29,788 nt of DNA, from IMG/VR virus record IMGVR_UViG_3300025138_013301, positions 1 through 29,788 of that record; one strand, 5' to 3'. Each line of letters starts with the position of its first letter. Position 1 is the first letter of the stretch. Position numbers and translations under genes: made by a program. A model generated the notes under the pieces. It was not told where the DNA came from, did no database searches, and worked only from the letters and a program-made list of their open reading frames with translations. Source of the stretch: a virus. Positions 3,131 to 25,732 of this stretch are shown piece after piece.

Positions 3131-3138
3131 TATAAATA
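3131..3138 (+). promoter_or_regulatory. T4-type late promoter, exact TATAAATA
   Basis: An exact TATAAATA lies 7 nt upstream of the ATG at 3146. In T4 the late sigma factor gp55 recognises this octamer at about -10, so the transcript would start about 2 nt before the start codon. The assignment rests on the exact match and on the same geometry at several other genes in the window. Confidence 0.6.
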
Positions 3139-3145
3139 TAATTAT

Positions 3146-3373
3146 ATGAAATTCAACGCTTTAGTTAAAAATATATTAGAAGATTTTAAAGCTCCAACTG
3201 ATAGTAAAAGACGAACTAAAAGGTCTAAAGGTAAGTATGGTACTGTTAACCCTCAATTAAACGATCCACATAGTACTAAAGCTATTTCCGGATTTAAAGG
3301 TCAACCAGGTGGTAAACAACATACACTAAAATTTTCGTTACCTAATAAAAAGAAGACTAAAAAGCCATCTTAA
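3146..3373 (+). CDS. Small basic protein with putative capsid-targeting N-terminus
   Basis: This is a 75-residue, very basic protein (Lys/Arg clusters such as SKRRTKRSKGK and a KKKTKKPS tail), consistent with DNA binding or packaging with DNA. Its N-terminus MKFNALVKNILED resembles the T4 internal-protein targeting peptide (MKTYQEFIAEA type). It has an I-L-E triplet at residues 10-12, where a gp21-like prohead protease would cut after Glu12. The near-identical start MKFNTLVEKILLEA occurs in the 120-aa gene at 20221. It is a single gene with its own late promoter, and its 3' end overlaps the convergent hydrolase gene by 17 nt. The internal-protein role is inferred from the peptide pattern and not from recognised homology. 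Confidence 0.7.
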   Translation: MKFNALVKNILEDFKAPTDSKRRTKRSKGKYGTVNPQLNDPHSTKAISGFKGQPGGKQHTLKFSLPNKKKTKKPS

Positions 3374-3863
3374 CGCCTTTTTCAATATCAGCGTCAGAAA
3401 TCTTAGCAGCTTCTTTTCGACCATTTTCAAATTGAAAAATTGGTCTCATTAATTTCATTAAAACTTCCGGGTCATTTAGATCAATTTTTTCATCAACATC
3501 ATACCCTGATCCGCTTGAAACGTGTCTTGCATAGTTAGCGTTATTTGGATTATTATCTTCTGGAGGAGCATACCTATCAATAATTTTTTTAATAGTATCT
3601 ATACCATATTTTTTACCGTATGTTCTTAAAATCCTAGCTGAAGCTCTAACTCCCATATGCATATCACTAAACCTCTCAAATTCTTCACCAGGTTCAGTTA
3701 CCTCACCATTCCAATTTGTAGGTGATGTTCGTATATTTCCAGGGTTATTGTTAAATATAGATGCGTTCGCAGACGATGCCATTAACCCCGCTGCTAATGC
3801 ACCAGTTGCTAATGCTTTACTAAATTTACCTTCTTCAATAACATATTCTTTAAATGTTTGCAT
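3357..3863 (-). CDS. Virion-type peptidoglycan hydrolase-like protein
   Basis: From residue ~37 the protein carries NNNPGNIRTS, a signature I associate with phage structural lysozyme/transglycosylase-like proteins, followed by RFSDMHMGVRASARILRTYG and later YARHVSSGSG. The role would be local cell-wall degradation during entry or egress. The N-terminus is composite. MQTFKEYVIEEG resembles the T4 internal-protein targeting peptide with an IEE cleavage triplet at 9-11. Then comes a signal-peptide-like stretch (KALATGALAAGLMASSANA). Either the first part is removed by the prohead protease, or the hydrophobic part drives export. The start overlaps the helicase stop by one base. Enzyme class is likely; exact chemistry is not determinable here. 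Confidence 0.65.
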   Translation of the reverse strand: MQTFKEYVIEEGKFSKALATGALAAGLMASSANASIFNNNPGNIRTSPTNWNGEVTEPGEEFERFSDMHMGVRASARILRTYGKKYGIDTIKKIIDRYAPPEDNNPNNANYARHVSSGSGYDVDEKIDLNDPEVLMKLMRPIFQFENGRKEAAKISDADIEKGVKMAF

Positions 3864-18399: not shown

Positions 18400-19107
18400 A
18401 TGATTACGTTTGATGAAAAGTCCCATACTTACAAATGCAGTAAAACTGGTAGAGAATTAATATCTGCAACTACATTAATAGGTAAGTATAAAAAGCCATT
18501 TGATAAAATGGAAAATGCAACTCGAGTAGCTAATAGAGAAGGTTTAGATGTCGACTTTGTATTAGATATGTGGGAGACAGAAAAGAATAGAGCTTGTGAT
18601 TACGGTACTAGTATCCATAAAGTCATGGAAGACTACTTAACTGAAGGGGTTGAAGAAGAAGAGCATGAATCTTTGTATTCTTCTTTTAATAAGTGGAAGC
18701 ATATCTTTAAGAAGTTTCCCACTTTATTATGTGAAGAAAAATTACATGATTTAGACAATTTCATTGCAGGTACAGCAGATTTAATTTACGAAAATAAAAC
18801 CCATTTCATGGTTGGTGATTTTAAGACTAATAAAGCGTTTAATTTCTTCTCTCAATATAATGAGTTTATGCTTAAACCGATGGACCATTTAAGTGTGTGT
18901 GAATTCAATACATACGGCTTGCAATTATCGTTATATGCTTATTTACATGAAAAGAGTTCAGGTAAAAAATGTACAGGGTGTGTTATATTCTATAAGGATA
19001 AAGAAAATAAGTTTTATCCTATCCGGGTGAATTATATGAAGAATGAAATTATTGCATTAATTGAAGATTACAATAATCCCAATTCACTATCTTCAAAAAT
19101 TGCTTAA
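18400..19107 (+). CDS. PD-(D/E)XK nuclease (Cas4/RecB-like)
   Basis: The core motifs of the PD-(D/E)XK fold are present: YGTSIHKVMEDYL (His), then CEEKLHDLDNFIAGTADLIYENKTHFMVGDFKTNK (Glu; G-x-AD; D-x-K), and YGLQLSLYAYL (Q-x-x-x-Y). The N-terminal FDEKSHTYKCSKTGRELISATTLIG is often seen in phage versions. It likely processes DNA ends in replication or recombination. It is 235 aa, and no Cys cluster for Fe-S is seen. It is the only plus-strand gene between 17592 and 20253. Its last 59 nt overlap the SOD gene tail to tail. Confidence 0.8.
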   Translation: MITFDEKSHTYKCSKTGRELISATTLIGKYKKPFDKMENATRVANREGLDVDFVLDMWETEKNRACDYGTSIHKVMEDYLTEGVEEEEHESLYSSFNKWKHIFKKFPTLLCEEKLHDLDNFIAGTADLIYENKTHFMVGDFKTNKAFNFFSQYNEFMLKPMDHLSVCEFNTYGLQLSLYAYLHEKSSGKKCTGCVIFYKDKENKFYPIRVNYMKNEIIALIEDYNNPNSLSSKIA

Positions 19108-19672
19108 TATACTTTTCTCTGTTAGGTCCATACTTTTTATAATAAGCATGCTCCCAAACATCTATACCAAGTAGTATAGTTACGTCTGAATCCATTAAAG
19201 GGTTATCTTGGTTATTGGTAGATATTAATTCTAATTTATTACCTTTCTTAACTAACCATAACCAACCTGAACCAAAATGAGCTAAAGCTTCATCAACAAA
19301 TTTAGCTTTAAAATTATCTACACTCTTATATTGTTTTTCTATTAACTCTTTAACAGGTCCCGAAATTGTTTTCCTATCAGGTGACATCATATTCCAGAAT
19401 AACTGATGATTATACGCGCCTCCTGCATTATTACGAATTGCATCTTTTTTAGATTTAGCTTTTTTAACTATTGATAACAAATCTTGCTTATTAGTAGCTG
19501 GTAATGCTGCATTTAATTTTTTAACATAACCTTTATAGTGTTTATTAAAATGCAAGTTCATTGTTTCAGCATCTATACTAGGCTCTAAAGCATCTAGAGC
19601 ATATGGAAGCTTTATAGCTTTAATACCTTCAACACTTTCTAAAATAATATCTGCTAGTTCATCATAATTCAT
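19049..19672 (-). CDS. Fe/Mn superoxide dismutase with capsid-targeting-like N-terminus
   Basis: This enzyme dismutates superoxide. The four metal ligands are in place: His41 (MNLHFNKHYKGYV), His89 (GGAYNHQLFWNMM), Asp171 and His175 (GIDVWEHAYYKKYG). The active-site Tyr49 and FGSGWLWLV are also kept. Homology to SodB starts only at about residue 18 (KAIKLPYALDALEP). The preceding MNYDELADIILESVEG is extra and contains I-L-E at 10-12, a candidate prohead-protease cleavage site like the T4 internal-protein peptide. The gene overlaps the small basic protein gene by 4 nt (ATGA), and an SD-like GGTGG lies upstream. Packaging into the head is inferred, not proven. Metal preference is unclear by eye. 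Confidence 0.9.
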   Translation of the reverse strand: MNYDELADIILESVEGIKAIKLPYALDALEPSIDAETMNLHFNKHYKGYVKKLNAALPATNKQDLLSIVKKAKSKKDAIRNNAGGAYNHQLFWNMMSPDRKTISGPVKELIEKQYKSVDNFKAKFVDEALAHFGSGWLWLVKKGNKLELISTNNQDNPLMDSDVTILLGIDVWEHAYYKKYGPNREKYIKQFLKIVNWDYCNLQLMQ

Positions 19673-19866
19673 TTTTTACCACCTTTCATATTAGCGCACC
19701 AATGATACATTTTACCCTTTTCCCCGCCGGATTTTTTAGCTTTACGTCTTAGTTCAGTTACCGAACCTTTACAACTAGCTCCTGATTTTTTTACTCTACC
19801 TGGTCTACTTTTACCTTTAACTTTTTTATCAGCGTAGTTTTCAAAATATGTACTAAAATTAATCAT
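19669..19866 (-). CDS. Small basic phage protein, 65 aa, with two cysteines
   Basis: This very basic protein (KKVKGKSRPGRVKKSG) has a C-terminal segment SCKGSVTELRRKAKKSGGEKGKMYHWCANMKGG that I associate with small conserved T4-like and cyanophage proteins ending in a K-x-x-WCAxM-K motif. Two cysteines 29 residues apart could bind a metal. The N-terminus MINFSTYFENYADKK resembles the targeting peptides next door but lacks a clear (I/L)xE triplet, so internal-protein status is less certain. It overlaps the 120-aa gene by 8 nt and the SOD gene by 4 nt. Confidence 0.65.
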   Translation of the reverse strand: MINFSTYFENYADKKVKGKSRPGRVKKSGASCKGSVTELRRKAKKSGGEKGKMYHWCANMKGGKK

Positions 19867-20221
19867 TTTCTTTCATTCTTTGGGTTTTCTTTTTACTTGC
19901 TTCCTTCTTTTTACTAATATATTTAAATGCAGAACGTAAACTTTTCTTCTTTTTTGTGTCTTTAGTTCTACTTACTGCAGCTCTAACTCTTTGATGTATT
20001 AGATTAATAATTTGTGATTGTCTTGCATGTGATTTAGATTTAAATGATCTTTTATTTAAAGTATCTCTTACATCAGCTACAGTACTAAACTTTACACTAA
20101 CTGTATCTTTAGGGTTTTCATCAGTATACAGCCTTCTACTTGAACCTTTAGGTTTTTTACCGGTTCCTTTCTTGGGATCAGCCTCTAATAATATTTTTTC
20201 TACTAAAGTGTTAAACTTCAC
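19859..20221 (-). CDS. Basic protein with putative capsid-targeting N-terminus (GTG start)
   Basis: This is a 120-aa, highly basic protein (KKGTGKKPKGSSRRLY, a KDTKKKKSLR block, a KKKEASKKKTQRM tail) with no recognised domain. Its start, MKFNTLVEKILLEADP, is almost the same as the 75-aa protein at 3146 (MKFNALVKNILEDF). It contains L-L-E at 11-13 for cleavage by a prohead protease. The start codon is GTG, with ATTAAATA 5 nt upstream. It heads a three-gene operon with the 65-aa protein and the SOD, all linked by overlaps. A DNA-binding or packaged internal protein is the best inference. Confidence 0.65.
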   Translation of the reverse strand: MKFNTLVEKILLEADPKKGTGKKPKGSSRRLYTDENPKDTVSVKFSTVADVRDTLNKRSFKSKSHARQSQIINLIHQRVRAAVSRTKDTKKKKSLRSAFKYISKKKEASKKKTQRMKEND

Positions 20222-20226
20222 CTAAA

Positions 20227-20234
20227 TATTTAAT
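20227..20234 (-). promoter_or_regulatory. Possible late promoter (ATTAAATA)
   Basis: The TAAATA core lies 5 nt upstream of the GTG start at 20221, so it could drive the three-gene unit ending in SOD. Two of eight bases differ from TATAAATA. Confidence 0.3.
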
Positions 20235-20744: not shown

Positions 20745-22793
20745 TTATTTACTGATTGCTCTATAAACTTTATCCCAATCTTCCCCTGGATCGTTTTCCT
20801 TTAGATCAGCAACCCGATCTTTCATCATATTATAGTAGAATTCCAACTCTGTATTTTCTTTTATTGAATCTTTAAGAGTATTTTCTGCTTTTAACCAATC
20901 TCGATTTTTATAATGCTTTAAGAATGTGTCATGTAGCATATAATTAAATTGGTCATTTAATACTGTATAAACTGTTATACCTTCTTTCTTACCCTTGACA
21001 GCAATTTTATCTAATTCTATAAATTTAAACTTATTACGTATAAGGTTAATAGTTTCTTGACCTAATAGGATACCAACACCATATGCTTTGGTTTGACCTT
21101 CAAGTCTTGCAGCTAAATTAACTCCATCCCCTAAGCACGTATAATCAAATCTTTGATCTGAACCCATATTACCTACAACAACTCTACCGGTATTGATACC
21201 GATACCAATTGCTAATGGTTTTTTACCCTCTTCAATTAACTGTATATTAAGGTTAGAAAGTTCTAATTGCATTTTTATTGCAACTTCAATTGCTTTAACA
21301 CGGTGAGATATCTGATCTTCTGGTAAAGGAGCATTCCAAAATGCCATTAAAGCATCGCCGATATATTTGTCTATTGTACCTCCGGATTCCATAACTATCC
21401 TAGTCATGGGTGTAAGGTATCTATTAATGAGATATGTTAAACCCTGGGGGTTATCTTTAAACTGCTCACTGATTGTAGTAAACCCTCTTATATCAGAAAA
21501 TAATATAGTTAAGTCTTGTGTATCACCGCCAAGTTTCAGCATATTAGGGTTCTTTTGTAGTTTCTTAACTATTTCAGGAGCTAAGTAATGCTCAAACTGC
21601 TTTTTAATTAACATTTTACCTTTATATTCATGTATAAATCTAAAGAATATAGCTAATGTAAATACTATAAAAATACTATAAACGGGGTATGTAAAATCGT
21701 ATAATAAATTATGATTACTGAATAACCAAAATCCATATACAGGTAAACTAATTATCACTACACTTATCAGTAAACTGTTAATAACCCATAGAAACCTAAG
21801 CGCACATAGCGTCAACAGTAAGCTCAGTGCTAAAGTAAATAGTATTTCATATAGGGTTGCTTCAACCGGTCTCACTAAAGCATTATTATTCGCTAAAGTT
21901 TCTACAACTTGCATGTTTAATTCATGACCATTGCTAACTCTTATAGGTGTTGCTACTGAATTAGATAAACCTTCTGCTGTTAATGCAATTACTGCTATAG
22001 TATCCTTTACAGTAGACCAATCTTCATTTGTTAATGAAATTTTATTAAACTCAGTATCATAATTAATCCATACTCTAGCATTTTCATCAGTTTCAAAAGT
22101 ACCAACATTTCTTAATCTAATAGCACTTACACCTGCATGATCTACTTTAACTTGATAGGATCTATCATCTACTAAAGTTCTTAAAATTTCTAAAGGTAAA
22201 GTTGGGTATACCTCATCTTTAACTTGTATCATTAGGGGCATACGTCTAACAACACCATCAAGCTCCGGAGCTGTAACAGTCATACCTACTCCTTTAGAAA
22301 ACATACCCACACTTTCAATAGGACCGATACCATTTGGGTAGTCAAATAACCAATCAGTTAACCTTACCGAACCAATAGTCGTTATATTTTGTTTAACTAA
22401 ATCTCCTTTACCTTGTAATGCAGCAGATTGAGTTGTTACAACCGGGTAATGGTATAAAATATCAGTAAAGGTTTTATCTCCTCCTAATCTATCTTCTTCA
22501 GCAAATAAAATAGGTAATACTACTAAACCTGCTCCATGATAATATGCTTTCTCTATATAATGTGATAATACGTCTCTTTTCCAAGGCCATTGACCATATT
22601 TTTCTAAACTAGCTTCATCTATTTCTATAATAGTAAATAAATCCGATGTTTTTGTATTTTGGGTTTTTTGATAATAATCTAAACCTTTCAATCTTAAGAT
22701 TTCTACTGGATATGGGTCATATATTCTTAAGACTGAAAATAAGACTGCAGCAATAGTGCAATATATGAATGGTTTAAATTTATTAAGTTTCAT
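20745..22793 (-). CDS. CHASE2-domain class III adenylate/guanylate cyclase
   Basis: The protein is 682 aa. TM1 spans ~8-24. A periplasmic CHASE2 sensor follows at ~27-305 (IDEASLEKYGQWPWKRD...LDGVVRRMPL...GLSNSVATPI). Three TM helices lie at ~313-334, 336-356 and 368-385, and a cytoplasmic class III cyclase domain at ~425-610. The cyclase residues are present: metal-binding Asp434 (LFSDIRGFT) and Asp480 (DKYIGDALMAF), substrate Lys476, Thr552, and the transition-state pair Asn559/Arg563 (NLAARLEG). It should make cAMP or cGMP in response to an envelope signal. Lys476 with Thr552 leans towards ATP. The ATG overlaps the FecR stop (ATGA), and an exact TATAAATA lies 10 nt upstream. It ends the curli-like cassette. 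Confidence 0.88.
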   Translation of the reverse strand: MKLNKFKPFIYCTIAAVLFSVLRIYDPYPVEILRLKGLDYYQKTQNTKTSDLFTIIEIDEASLEKYGQWPWKRDVLSHYIEKAYYHGAGLVVLPILFAEEDRLGGDKTFTDILYHYPVVTTQSAALQGKGDLVKQNITTIGSVRLTDWLFDYPNGIGPIESVGMFSKGVGMTVTAPELDGVVRRMPLMIQVKDEVYPTLPLEILRTLVDDRSYQVKVDHAGVSAIRLRNVGTFETDENARVWINYDTEFNKISLTNEDWSTVKDTIAVIALTAEGLSNSVATPIRVSNGHELNMQVVETLANNNALVRPVEATLYEILFTLALSLLLTLCALRFLWVINSLLISVVIISLPVYGFWLFSNHNLLYDFTYPVYSIFIVFTLAIFFRFIHEYKGKMLIKKQFEHYLAPEIVKKLQKNPNMLKLGGDTQDLTILFSDIRGFTTISEQFKDNPQGLTYLINRYLTPMTRIVMESGGTIDKYIGDALMAFWNAPLPEDQISHRVKAIEVAIKMQLELSNLNIQLIEEGKKPLAIGIGINTGRVVVGNMGSDQRFDYTCLGDGVNLAARLEGQTKAYGVGILLGQETINLIRNKFKFIELDKIAVKGKKEGITVYTVLNDQFNYMLHDTFLKHYKNRDWLKAENTLKDSIKENTELEFYYNMMKDRVADLKENDPGEDWDKVYRAISK

Positions 22794-23731
22794 TGTTGAA
22801 TAATATTTATAGATACGCTACCACCAGCGTTTAAAACACCTTCAGTTACAGTTCCTTTATTGTTATAGTTTAAAGATACATCTGAAACTGAAGGTACAAT
22901 TAATTTAATTTTATTTTCATTATCTGAAGTAAAAGTAGCTTTATCATCTTCAATTTTAAAAATTGAGTCTGTTTCTTCTCCTCCAAAATCTATATAAGAA
23001 GCTTCTTCTAATAAATCTTCTTGGTTATCGTTTTCAGCCTGTTCATCATCAGTATTTTCATTTATTTCAGACTCTATTCTAACTATATCATTTTTTCTAT
23101 CATTATCTACGGTAGGTTTAGATGGGGAATTAAATGATGATGAAACTGATGTAACTTCAAAAGCTTGTGTTAAAACAACTGACCCTATATCATTAAAAAC
23201 TTCAATAGATCCAACATATCGATTACCATTACTATCTTCTGATGGTAATAATGTAAAAGTACTTTTACCCGATTCTTTAACCACTACTTCAAAGTCAGTC
23301 CCTCTAACTGATACTGAAGCAGTAGGGGTAGTTATTTTAATATTTTCTTTATTATTCTTTGCTATTAGACCTGATGTATATCTTAGAGTACCGAATGATG
23401 CTTTTAAATTAACTTTACCTTTTTTTGTATTATTATCATAAACAAATTCATCAATTATTAACGTTGAATATTTTGAAATAGAAACTTTAGTTTCATCTAC
23501 GAATAAAATTTTAACTGTCCCGTCTAAAGTTTCTATTTCATCATACATTTCAACCGGTGTACCAACACTAGTTAGTATTTTTTCATCACCTCTTACAATC
23601 TGTGCAGATTGGGACTGAAAGGAAACCTCCCCAACTTTAGCTAAAGCAGAGGAGGTTATTAAAAAGAAAACAAATAATAGATTACGGTTGTACGAAATCA
23701 GGTATTGTAACACCTTGTGTATAGTTTCCAT
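22790..23731 (-). CDS. FecR-domain periplasmic protein
   Basis: After an N-terminal signal peptide (RNLLFVFFLITSSALAK) the protein has a FecR domain. RGDEKILTSVGTPVEMYDEIETLDGTVKILFVDETKVSIS is followed by KKGKVNLKASFGTLRYTSGLIAKNN and the hallmark TPTASVSVRGTDFEV (residues ~45-150). The C-terminal half is acidic and Ser/Asn-rich, ending in a short beta-rich tail. FecR-domain proteins next to CHASE2 cyclases are a common bacterial pairing, suggesting a shared sensing module. The ATG at 23731 overlaps the curlin gene by 50 nt. A GTG at 23713 is an alternative giving a shorter n-region. The DNA is as AT-rich as its neighbours. Confidence 0.85.
   Translation of the reverse strand: METIHKVLQYLISYNRNLLFVFFLITSSALAKVGEVSFQSQSAQIVRGDEKILTSVGTPVEMYDEIETLDGTVKILFVDETKVSISKYSTLIIDEFVYDNNTKKGKVNLKASFGTLRYTSGLIAKNNKENIKITTPTASVSVRGTDFEVVVKESGKSTFTLLPSEDSNGNRYVGSIEVFNDIGSVVLTQAFEVTSVSSSFNSPSKPTVDNDRKNDIVRIESEINENTDDEQAENDNQEDLLEEASYIDFGGEETDSIFKIEDDKATFTSDNENKIKLIVPSVSDVSLNYNNKGTVTEGVLNAGGSVSINIIQQ
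22804..22811 (-). promoter_or_regulatory. T4-type late promoter, exact TATAAATA, upstream of cyclase
   Basis: This exact octamer sits inside the last codons of the FecR gene, 10 nt upstream of the cyclase ATG. If it works as in T4, transcription starts about 5 nt before the ATG, giving the cyclase its own late transcript besides read-through. Confidence 0.5.
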
Positions 23732-24446
23732 TAAAATTACTTATAACATCAAGCCCTTCCAATCCAGCAGTATAAGTACCGTCGGATTGAATAATAGTAA
23801 AGGTTGTATCACTACCATAATGTGTAAGCTCTATTGTTTGATGTTCTGATCCAGACTGCACTAGGTTAAGATCATTACTATCACCTTGAAGTTGGATGGT
23901 TTGGCTATGACCAATACCAAAATTACCACCTTCTTGAATCGATGTAATTTGATTACCATTACCTATTAATGAAACATCAGATACTGCTCCGAGATTATCA
24001 TTGAGATAAAAATCTAATATATTACCATTACCAATAATGAAGTTTTTCAGGGTTTGTTGTGATATAACTGAAGCTTCTGATGATGTATCGTCTTTTTGGA
24101 GTGAAATAACATTACCGTCACCAAGAATAGTATTGGTAAATGTATTTTGATCACCATTTACTATAATATCTTGTGTATTACCATTACCTTCAATATATAG
24201 ACCAAAAGTAGTTTGATCTCCATCCCACTGAATATCTAATGTGTTACCATTACCAATTTGTGAAATATCGAAATCACTACTATCCCCTGCTATAGTAGAA
24301 ATATTGGTTGATGTACCGATTTTATTACCAGAACCAACTTGAGTGATGTCAAACGTTCCGGTAGATCCGTCTTGTTCTAAGTATATTTCATTATTTGCAA
24401 ATGCAATAGTACTTGTTAATAATAATGCTAGTAGTGTTGTTTTCAT
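23682..24446 (-). CDS. Curlin-like repeat protein (CsgA/CsgB type)
   Basis: This 254-aa secreted protein has a signal peptide (KTTLLALLLTSTIAFA) and then about seven repeats built around G-N/S/D-G/S-N: GSGN 38-41, GNGN 65-68, GNGN 87-90, GDGN 109-112, GNGN 139-142, GNGN 162-165 and GDSN 188-191. The spacing is 22-30 residues. Several are preceded by F-D-I-x-Q-x-G and followed by a Gln, the curlin (Sx5QxGxGNxAx3Q) pattern for stacked beta-turns. It is the likely substrate of CsgG/CsgF next door and would polymerise as a surface fibre. I chose ATG 24446: the ATG at 24470 would place the late promoter inside the coding region and put eight residues before the signal peptide. Confidence 0.85.
   Translation of the reverse strand: MKTTLLALLLTSTIAFANNEIYLEQDGSTGTFDITQVGSGNKIGTSTNISTIAGDSSDFDISQIGNGNTLDIQWDGDQTTFGLYIEGNGNTQDIIVNGDQNTFTNTILGDGNVISLQKDDTSSEASVISQQTLKNFIIGNGNILDFYLNDNLGAVSDVSLIGNGNQITSIQEGGNFGIGHSQTIQLQGDSNDLNLVQSGSEHQTIELTHYGSDTTFTIIQSDGTYTAGLEGLDVISNFNGNYTQGVTIPDFVQP
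23940..24335 (-). repeat. Repeat region of curlin-like gene (GNGN repeats)
   Basis: On the plus strand the DNA shows recurring TTACCATTACC-type blocks (for example near 23953, 24022, 24176 and 24243), each the complement of codons for Gly-Asn-Gly-Asn. They are a protein-level repeat of the curlin fold and not a CRISPR or other DNA repeat, since the sequence between blocks diverges. Confidence 0.7.
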
Positions 24447-24451
24447 ATGAA

Positions 24452-24459
24452 TATTTATA
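24452..24459 (-). promoter_or_regulatory. T4-type late promoter, exact TATAAATA, upstream of curlin gene
   Basis: This exact octamer lies 5 nt upstream of the chosen ATG at 24446. With T4 geometry, transcription would begin at or next to the A of the ATG, a leaderless message. It partly overlaps the hairpin that follows csgG, so one unit appears to end where the next begins. Confidence 0.65.
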
Positions 24460-24478
24460 AAAAACAACACTGTTTTTT
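24459..24478 (-). terminator. AT-rich hairpin between csgG and curlin gene
   Basis: On the minus strand AAAAAACA and TGTTTTTT form an 8-bp stem with a GTGT loop, one base after the csgG stop codon. The 3' arm itself is U-rich and is followed by ATAAAT. A weak Rho-independent terminator or processing site would separate csgF-csgG messages from a more abundant curlin message. Confidence 0.45.
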
Positions 24479-24479
24479 A

Positions 24480-25268
24480 CTATTCAACAAAATTCCACAA
24501 ACCTTTTTCGTCCCCTTGCAGCATTAAATCAATAATACACGCATCTATAGCTTTTCTTGTAGCAATTGAAACTCTTTCATTTCTTGCATAACCAATTTCA
24601 GCTTCTCCATAATCATTAAATTCTCCTAAATTTAATTCATCAGTATCAAAATATTTAAAAAACGTAGCACCGGTGCCAACACTTAGTATAGTTTTACTAA
24701 CCGTTGAAGATAATAATATTTGACCAGAATTAACACTAACAAATCTCATCGAAACTGTTACGTTATCTTTTCTATACTGTTTAGAAAACCCGATACCTAA
24801 ATAACTAGCTCCTATACCACCTGATACGATATTACTTTCGTATGAAATAATACCACCTTCAACTATCATACCAGCAAATAATAAAGCTCCTATACTTTCT
24901 TCAGTATCATTAAAAGATTTCCTATTAGTTTTAATAATATTTCTTTCATTTAATAAGTTAGCAAGATTTGCCCTTTCGACTACATTAAACCATTTACCAT
25001 TACCTGCTTCTATTAATGATTCTATTACCCAAGCCTCTCCACCTTGTGTAACTGCAGATGAAAAAGATGCATAATTATCAGCTGTTTTTCTTTGACCAGT
25101 TTTATCATCAAAAGAGTAAACTGCAACAAATATTGGTGCTTCCTTTACGCCTTTCATATCTCCTTGATCAATCATATATGGGGGTTTCTGCACCCAAGGT
25201 GGATTTTGAACAGGTGTAGAAACACATCCCACCATTAGTAGTAAAGTTAAACTAATTAAAAATTTCAT
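24480..25268 (-). CDS. csgG: Curli secretion pore lipoprotein CsgG
   Basis: This is the outer-membrane nonameric pore that exports curli subunits. A lipobox (LLLMVGC, lipidated Cys15) leads into APIFVAVYSFDDKTGQRK and then YASFSSAVTQGG, the constriction-loop region (a Phe is kept in the position of the E. coli Phe56 gate). LLNERNIIKTNR, AGMIVEGGIISYESN, SGGIGASYLGIG, SSTVSKTILSVGTGA and YARNERVSIATRKAIDA all follow E. coli CsgG in order, and it ends like it (GLWNFVE). At 262 aa it is about 15 aa shorter, at the C-terminus. It overlaps the csgF stop by 1 nt and shares a transcript with it. No CsgE cap gene is present nearby. Confidence 0.93.
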   Translation of the reverse strand: MKFLISLTLLLMVGCVSTPVQNPPWVQKPPYMIDQGDMKGVKEAPIFVAVYSFDDKTGQRKTADNYASFSSAVTQGGEAWVIESLIEAGNGKWFNVVERANLANLLNERNIIKTNRKSFNDTEESIGALLFAGMIVEGGIISYESNIVSGGIGASYLGIGFSKQYRKDNVTVSMRFVSVNSGQILLSSTVSKTILSVGTGATFFKYFDTDELNLGEFNDYGEAEIGYARNERVSIATRKAIDACIIDLMLQGDEKGLWNFVE

Positions 25269-25732
25269 TATGGTGTATCGGTCGATGCTGGTGGTATATA
25301 CAGTGAACCTATAGGTATAACTATACTAGTTGTTGAACCGTCAATTAAATCGTTAATAGTAATATAAATTTGATCATCAGAAGATTTATACCAAGTTAAT
25401 TCACTGTCTTCTATTGCAAAAGTACCTGTATCTAAACCATCATCTGCAAATAATTGCTCTGTTACTTGTTTAGCTAATTCAGAATAAATTCTTGCTTGTA
25501 AGCTTGATAAAAAAGTATTAACAGCAGATCTTTCATCGGCCAATTCAGCTTGTATTTGAGCTGATTCAATTTCATCTTCGATAGCTTTTTTACGATTAAA
25601 TGAGATTTGCTCTAAAGTTAATTTATGAGCAGAATAGCCTACCCCAGTAAATGTTGGTGATTTAAATTGAAATACAATCTCACTACCAAATAACATACAA
25701 GGTAGTAATAAACAAAGAAAAATATTTTTCAT
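25268..25732 (-). CDS. csgF: Curli assembly factor CsgF
   Basis: CsgF is the exported partner that plugs the CsgG channel and couples export to fibre nucleation. A signal peptide (KNIFLCLLLPCMLFG) is followed by SEIVFQFKSPTFTG, matching the CsgF N-terminus (TFQFRNPNFGG) that inserts into the CsgG pore. FLSSLQARIYSELAKQV matches the family's central helix, and the C-terminal half ends in the beta-rich YITINDLIDGSTTSIVIP. It is 154 aa (E. coli 138 aa). The order csgF then csgG on the same strand, with a 1-nt overlap, and a TATAAATA 5 nt upstream of the ATG support a dedicated late unit. Confidence 0.85.
   Translation of the reverse strand: MKNIFLCLLLPCMLFGSEIVFQFKSPTFTGVGYSAHKLTLEQISFNRKKAIEDEIESAQIQAELADERSAVNTFLSSLQARIYSELAKQVTEQLFADDGLDTGTFAIEDSELTWYKSSDDQIYITINDLIDGSTTSIVIPIGSLYIPPASTDTP

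Follow-up and report, generated by a model that had tools for sequence, protein, structure and literature searches.

Why should a phage superoxide dismutase (SOD) begin with a dozen residues that its bacterial counterparts do not have? The question is raised by a gene of a T4-like aquatic phage, on the minus strand of a viral DNA fragment in IMG/VR, 29,788 nucleotides (29.8 kb) long, which was analyzed as a whole and is referred to here as the window. Its SOD carries an N-terminal extension of 12 to 15 residues that is absent from bacterial SODs and retained by viral relatives in IMG/VR. In the original prediction, the extension was taken as a sign that the enzyme may be packaged in the phage head. 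The features of the gene and its product are listed below; here and in the text, a slash within a sequence marks the putative cut.

19049-19672, minus strand: SOD gene, encoding a 207-residue precursor (PF02777/PF00081, NCBIfam, AF2 model).
19679-19684, minus strand: Shine-Dalgarno-like AGGTGG ahead of the SOD ATG, read from the sequence.
19637-19672, minus strand: predicted capsid targeting propeptide, residues 1 to 12, MNYDELADIILE (absence from bacteria, conservation in viruses, L11/E12, pN/pS, pLDDT).
19636-19637, minus strand: predicted gp21 cleavage point between E12 and S13 (L/I-X-E rule and gp22/gp23 sites of relatives).
19052-19636, minus strand: predicted mature SOD, residues 13 to 207 (first residues matched to solved SODs: 15 to 16, aligned with chain residues 1 to 2).
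19550-19552, minus strand: metal ligand His41 (invariant column; role taken from known Mn/Fe homologues).
19406-19408, minus strand: metal ligand His89 (invariant column).
19160-19162, minus strand: metal ligand Asp171 (invariant column).
19148-19150, minus strand: metal ligand His175 (invariant column).

The open reading frame matched Sod_Fe_C (118.5 bits, 1.5e-34) and Sod_Fe_N (90.4 bits, 1e-25), in both cases above the curated Pfam cutoffs of 20.9 and 27, respectively. Its top NCBIfam match was to Mn SOD, with a score under the equivalog cutoff. An AlphaFold (AF2) model of the protein had a mean pLDDT of 88.8 and matched S. aureus SodA with a Z score of 29.3 and an rmsd of 1.2 Å at 46% identity. 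Across 20 viral relatives, none of the four ligands varies, nor does any of the active-site residues Y49, Q155, W173, and E174. Judged by its sequence, the window protein is a Mn-type Fe/Mn superoxide dismutase with its ligands intact, and the invariant ligands and second-shell residues predict an apparently intact, active enzyme.

The start of the SOD gene can be fixed because AGGTGG precedes the ATG and no other ATG, GTG, or TTG lies between the start of the frame and the SOD domain in the window sequence. A wrongly chosen start codon is thereby ruled out, and the extension reads as translated. SOD homology had been placed at about residue 18, close to residues 15 to 16, where the structural match to solved SODs opens; a cut after E12 would therefore leave about three extra residues, and nine residues would remain before LPY. 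Residues 1 to 10 of the model had a mean pLDDT of 51. The packaging proposal had been staked on the extension being absent from bacterial SODs, and we found it to be so: 70 of 79 start 7 or 8 residues before LPY (63 and 7 proteins, respectively), several of the remainder resemble signal-peptide forms, and a chance [LIV]xE occurs in four bacterial SODs, in some of them upstream of the probable start. Unlike its nonphage homologues, the window SOD carries at its N-terminus a short extension that closes with (L/I)-x-E. A secretion signal was ruled out by eye, the extension being acidic and devoid of a hydrophobic core. Recent acquisition of a host SOD together with a stray upstream frame was also ruled out: in a tree with 45 bacterial SODs, all T4-like phage SODs are separate (branch support, 99/95), and the extension is kept.

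Scans of IMG/VR yielded 30 viral loci in a first round and 80 (overlapping) in a second, profile-based round. In the window's own clade, the extension takes forms such as MNYDKLADLILEEVGG, MRFSKLSNIILEQADG, and MSYDSVTELFLEKYEG. Because L11 and E12 show 0 changes each on a phylogeny of the SOD body, versus 2 to 10 at the other columns from 2 to 15 (9, 2, 7, 10, 5, 7, 6, 4, and 4 at columns 2 to 10; 10, 8, and 8 at columns 13 to 15), the I-L-E motif of the SOD exceeds chance. Strong purifying selection acts on codons 10 to 12, whose pN/pS was 0.14 and 0.02 in two sets of close relatives; that of the flanking codons on the two sides was 0.67/0.56 and 0.14/0.33, values that come from nonindependent sequence pairs and small counts. 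Among 26 representatives spanning two clades, 25 have an aligned [LIV]xE 8 to 14 residues before LPY (L193 was read by eye), and shuffled upstream stretches carried the motif in a mean of 6.6 of 26 (about a quarter) and in at most 16, a comparison that involves a short motif ([LIV]xE or (L/I)xE) and viral sequences that share ancestry and hence are not independent samples. The one exception, L005, has F-L-E. A strict L or I at P3 does not extend to all viral relatives: L020 and L026 carry V there, and L005 carries F. With I at this position, the window SOD itself keeps to the strict form.

In T4, gp21 cuts after L/I-X-E, and the internal proteins carry targeting propeptides of 10 to 19 residues (PMC9026906). 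The I-L-E of the SOD fits this rule and also fits the apparent sites in gp22 (MDIKQILSE/A) and gp23 (CLNE/AGPN, CIEE/AN, and HLINE/AS, that is, LINE/A) of relatives. An S77 prohead protease (gp21) and gp23 were found in many relatives, mainly on long contigs; one of these relatives is G002, which has an SOD 87% identical to that of the window. Records of relatives with no S77/gp23 match are fragments; the window is itself a fragment in which gp21 and gp23 are absent. The named phages nearest by gp23 are only about 34% identical. In four records (L018, L019, L030, and L165, the first two being near-copies), the SOD gene directly follows that for gp23, the major capsid protein.

The genes around the SOD and at the other end of the window add the following features.

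19669-19866, minus strand: 65-residue basic protein, MINFSTYFENYADKK; overlaps the SOD start by 4 bases; no strict (L/I)xE.
19859-20221, minus strand: 120-residue very basic protein, MKFNTLVEKILLEADPK (MKFNTLVEKILLE/ADPKK); N-terminus of the SOD class; its gene opens the operon.
20227-20233, minus strand: TTAAATA, late-promoter-like, at -12 of the operon's first start codon (from the sequence).
3146-3373, plus strand: 75-residue basic protein, MKFNALVKNILE/DFKAP; same N-terminal class as the SOD.
3357-3863, minus strand: lysozyme/transglycosylase-like protein, MQTFKEYVIEE... (PHROG 873, head and packaging, E 5e-42).

The SOD had been described as cotranscribed with two small basic proteins of the same class. 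Two such genes do lie immediately upstream, with an overlap of 4 bases between SOD and the 65-residue gene and of 8 bases between that gene and the one for the 120-residue protein, and the latter protein belongs to the class; the 65-residue protein, whose gene is a conserved upstream neighbor of SOD in many relatives, lacks a strict (L/I)xE, and in this respect the claim went too far. That I-L-E occupies residues 10 to 12 in both the SOD and the 75-residue protein was correct as claimed. ATAAATA is present at 3132-3138, ahead of the gene for the 75-residue protein, and in the relative L011 at the place matching TTAAATA of the window. In G001, a 185-kb relative, 25 of the 36 open reading frames having ATAAATA in the 40 upstream bases have it at -12/-13, including gp21 and the gene that opens the SOD operon, and an N-terminal (L/I)xE occurs in 14 of the 36 ATAAATA frames versus 31 of 188 others (Fisher p = 0.005). 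The sharp -12/-13 placement of ATAAATA in G001 (L045 to L054) also implies very short leaders on late genes.

Beyond the SODs, nine nonredundant proteins fell into the same N-terminal class, seven of them with a charge of +11 or more; this count is post hoc, as a relaxed N-terminal pattern was needed to catch basic proteins. The strict shared pattern caught SODs only and no other proteins. Most of these other members are small and very basic. A NUDIX hydrolase (L006:8836-9435, plus strand; net charge, +24) has an N-terminus of the SOD tag class, MIFNDLVEFILNE/DRS, and an untagged NUDIX gene lies near SOD in other relatives. A 68-residue protein (L026:11394-11600, plus strand) starts with MSYNNEVNLILEKF, nearly the tag of the L167 SOD, MSFKSQVNLILEKN, which suggests that the tag may move between cargoes. 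The lysozyme-like protein at 3357-3863 is a possible head cargo as well, although the case is weaker. Its N-terminus, MQTF[KN]EYVIEEGK, is found both in the window and in L046 (G001 37863-38414) on proteins with apparently different C-terminal parts, and it looks like a shuffled tag.

In the second clade, which is T4-like and, as judged from contig origin, mostly freshwater, a coiled-coil-like stretch or an HExxH metallopeptidase-like domain stands ahead of the SOD, and in some members a further domain comes after it. Here [LIV]xE lies 8 to 12 residues before LPY (FLLE, LINE, IISE, ILTE, and TIQE), and (L/I)xE is often present downstream of the fused SOD (QLNE/A, IINE/G, FLTE/G, and IILE/G). 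In a model of the L182 protein, a short low-confidence linker at residues 154 to 161 separates two well-predicted domains; the SOD structural match starts at 159 to 163, and the predicted cut would fall after 160. A protease that frees the domains would be a simple explanation of the border motifs; an ordinary linker could contain such motifs too. The HExxH metallopeptidase-like domain (LAHEWVHAHQR...NEDEANAFAG) precedes SOD in L182:4551-6677, L169, L177, and L188 (all plus strand). In L193, L205, L212, and L214, the C-terminal part is a conserved, possibly nuclease-like domain that contains QIKPF or QVKPF and is separated from the SOD by (L/I)xE. Pfam and PHROG returned only weak matches for the N- and C-terminal domains of the fusions, and the C-terminal part of the L182 fusion was modeled poorly.

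A further case comes from the cultured Pseudomonas phage PA5oct, which encodes an S77 protease and an SOD-like protein, EST35_0261, with I-A-E nine residues before IPY (MNDSIKKYISIAE/AASSVKKIPIPY, junction /AASS). The protein resembles the window SOD in its site before the domain and differs in its identity of about 25% and very long branch. It carries an ESI-MS/MS flag, which covers most structural genes of PA5oct and omits a scaffold-like gene. The flag is also on ribonucleotide reductase, thymidylate synthase, DNA ligase, and ClpP; with such obvious nonvirion enzymes flagged as well, we did not accept it as proof of packaging, and it favors packaging without proving it. For MIJ3, a close relative of PA5oct, the published paper reports four major proteins only.

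The original prediction of a head-packaged SOD thus finds support in the conservation of the site, the selection on codons 10 to 12, the gp21 and gp23 of relatives, and the adjacency to gp23 in four records; the sites at fused-domain junctions and the similar site in PA5oct point the same way. We infer, with a probability of roughly 0.78, that the SOD is a precursor of phage-head cargo, its targeting, its cut by gp21, and its packaging in this phage all being deduced from sequence patterns. The precursor would be made late in infection, and residues 1 to 12 would act as a capsid targeting sequence that recruits the SOD to the prohead core. Cleavage by the prohead protease gp21 after E12, the last residue of I-L-E, would then release the Mn/Fe SOD (residues 13 to 207), which would be retained in the head with the DNA, to be ejected with it or to be protective inside the particle. 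The most likely role, which we place slightly short of even odds, is that the SOD travels into the host alongside the DNA and clears superoxide in the first minutes; the next, in itself rather unlikely, is protection of the DNA inside the particle in sunlit water. Because the T4 portal is about 30 Å wide, ejection would need unfolding or passage as a monomer; this width is not prohibitive, because T4, whose tags package foreign enzymes, delivers packaged beta-galactosidase (PMC9026906).

The rival that survives best is an ordinary auxiliary metabolic gene, whose SOD would be confined to the cytoplasm of infected cells, lowering respiration-derived superoxide, with an extension that is neutral or regulatory. 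We regard it as improbable even though the active-site residues are intact and SODs are also carried by further large phages, one of them Vibrio phage 2.275.O, whose copy lacks such an extension: it leaves unexplained the invariant L-E, the purifying selection on codons 10 to 12, the border sites in the fused forms, and the tag on small basic proteins, and the late-promoter-like element at -12 fits late synthesis, which would offer little early protection unless the enzyme is packaged. Alternatively, the SOD could be packaged and its activity incidental, as a DNA-associated or structural filler or a manganese store. The small, very basic, DNA-binding-looking products of its close neighbors would suit such a part, yet the metal ligands and second-shell residues are all invariant across the viral set, which predicts activity, and we consider this version very improbable. 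Least credible of all is an uncut N-terminal helix that docks on or oligomerizes with another phage or host protein, for although residues 3 to 13 of the model are predicted to be helical and some fused forms have coiled-coil-like N-termini, only L-E is fixed and most extension residues vary freely, whereas docking helices usually conserve a whole face.

Both halves of the head-cargo reading are already known separately, as T4 tags and as the packaged viral SOD of PBCV-1. T4 IPI, IPII, IPIII, and Alt (PMC9026906) likewise have a short N-terminal propeptide ending in (L/I)-x-E and belong to a phage with gp21 and gp23; the T4 cargo is a small basic inhibitor or an ADP-ribosyltransferase, whereas here it is an SOD whose packaging is predicted. 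The Cu/Zn SOD A245R of the chlorovirus PBCV-1 is expressed late, packaged in the virion, and proposed to lower early superoxide, and cells infected with PBCV-1 accumulated less superoxide than those infected with virus lacking SOD (PMC7019647). This virus-encoded enzyme sets a precedent for a role in early infection but differs in its unrelated fold, its Cu/Zn metal, and its origin in a eukaryotic algal virus. We know of no prohead-protease tag on it. Bacterial Mn/Fe SODs (SodA/SodB) have fold and ligands in common with the window SOD but start 7 to 8 residues before LPY, and the T4-like phage SODs are separate from them on the tree. In the open-access literature, we found no phage SOD described as packaged, no Mn/Fe SOD described as T4-type head cargo, and no description of prohead-protease-like sites at the domain borders of SOD fusions. 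If the head-cargo reading is true, this phage would be, as far as we found, the first for which head packaging of an antioxidant enzyme had been demonstrated. The implication would be that, in sunlit water, superoxide genuinely endangers phage DNA or the opening minutes of an infection. An (L/I)xE just before a known domain or at fusion borders would then allow head cargo to be read from sequence, singling out proteins that one would normally class as ordinary metabolic genes. Tentatively, and with the odds somewhat against it, one may envisage an antioxidant cargo system in T4-like aquatic phages, comprising head-tagged SOD (with NUDIX in one relative) and freshwater polyproteins (HExxH metallopeptidase-like domain, SOD, and C-terminal domain) that would be split by the prohead protease in the capsid before injection.

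Elsewhere in the window, at 20745-25732 on the minus strand, the phage carries a run of genes for a CHASE2-adenylate/guanylate cyclase, FecR, a curlin-repeat protein, CsgG, and CsgF. The run is conserved in the 185-kb relative L011, and the window CsgG is 40 to 43% identical to CsgG of Methylophilales phage Melnitz and Pelagibacter phage HTVC008M.
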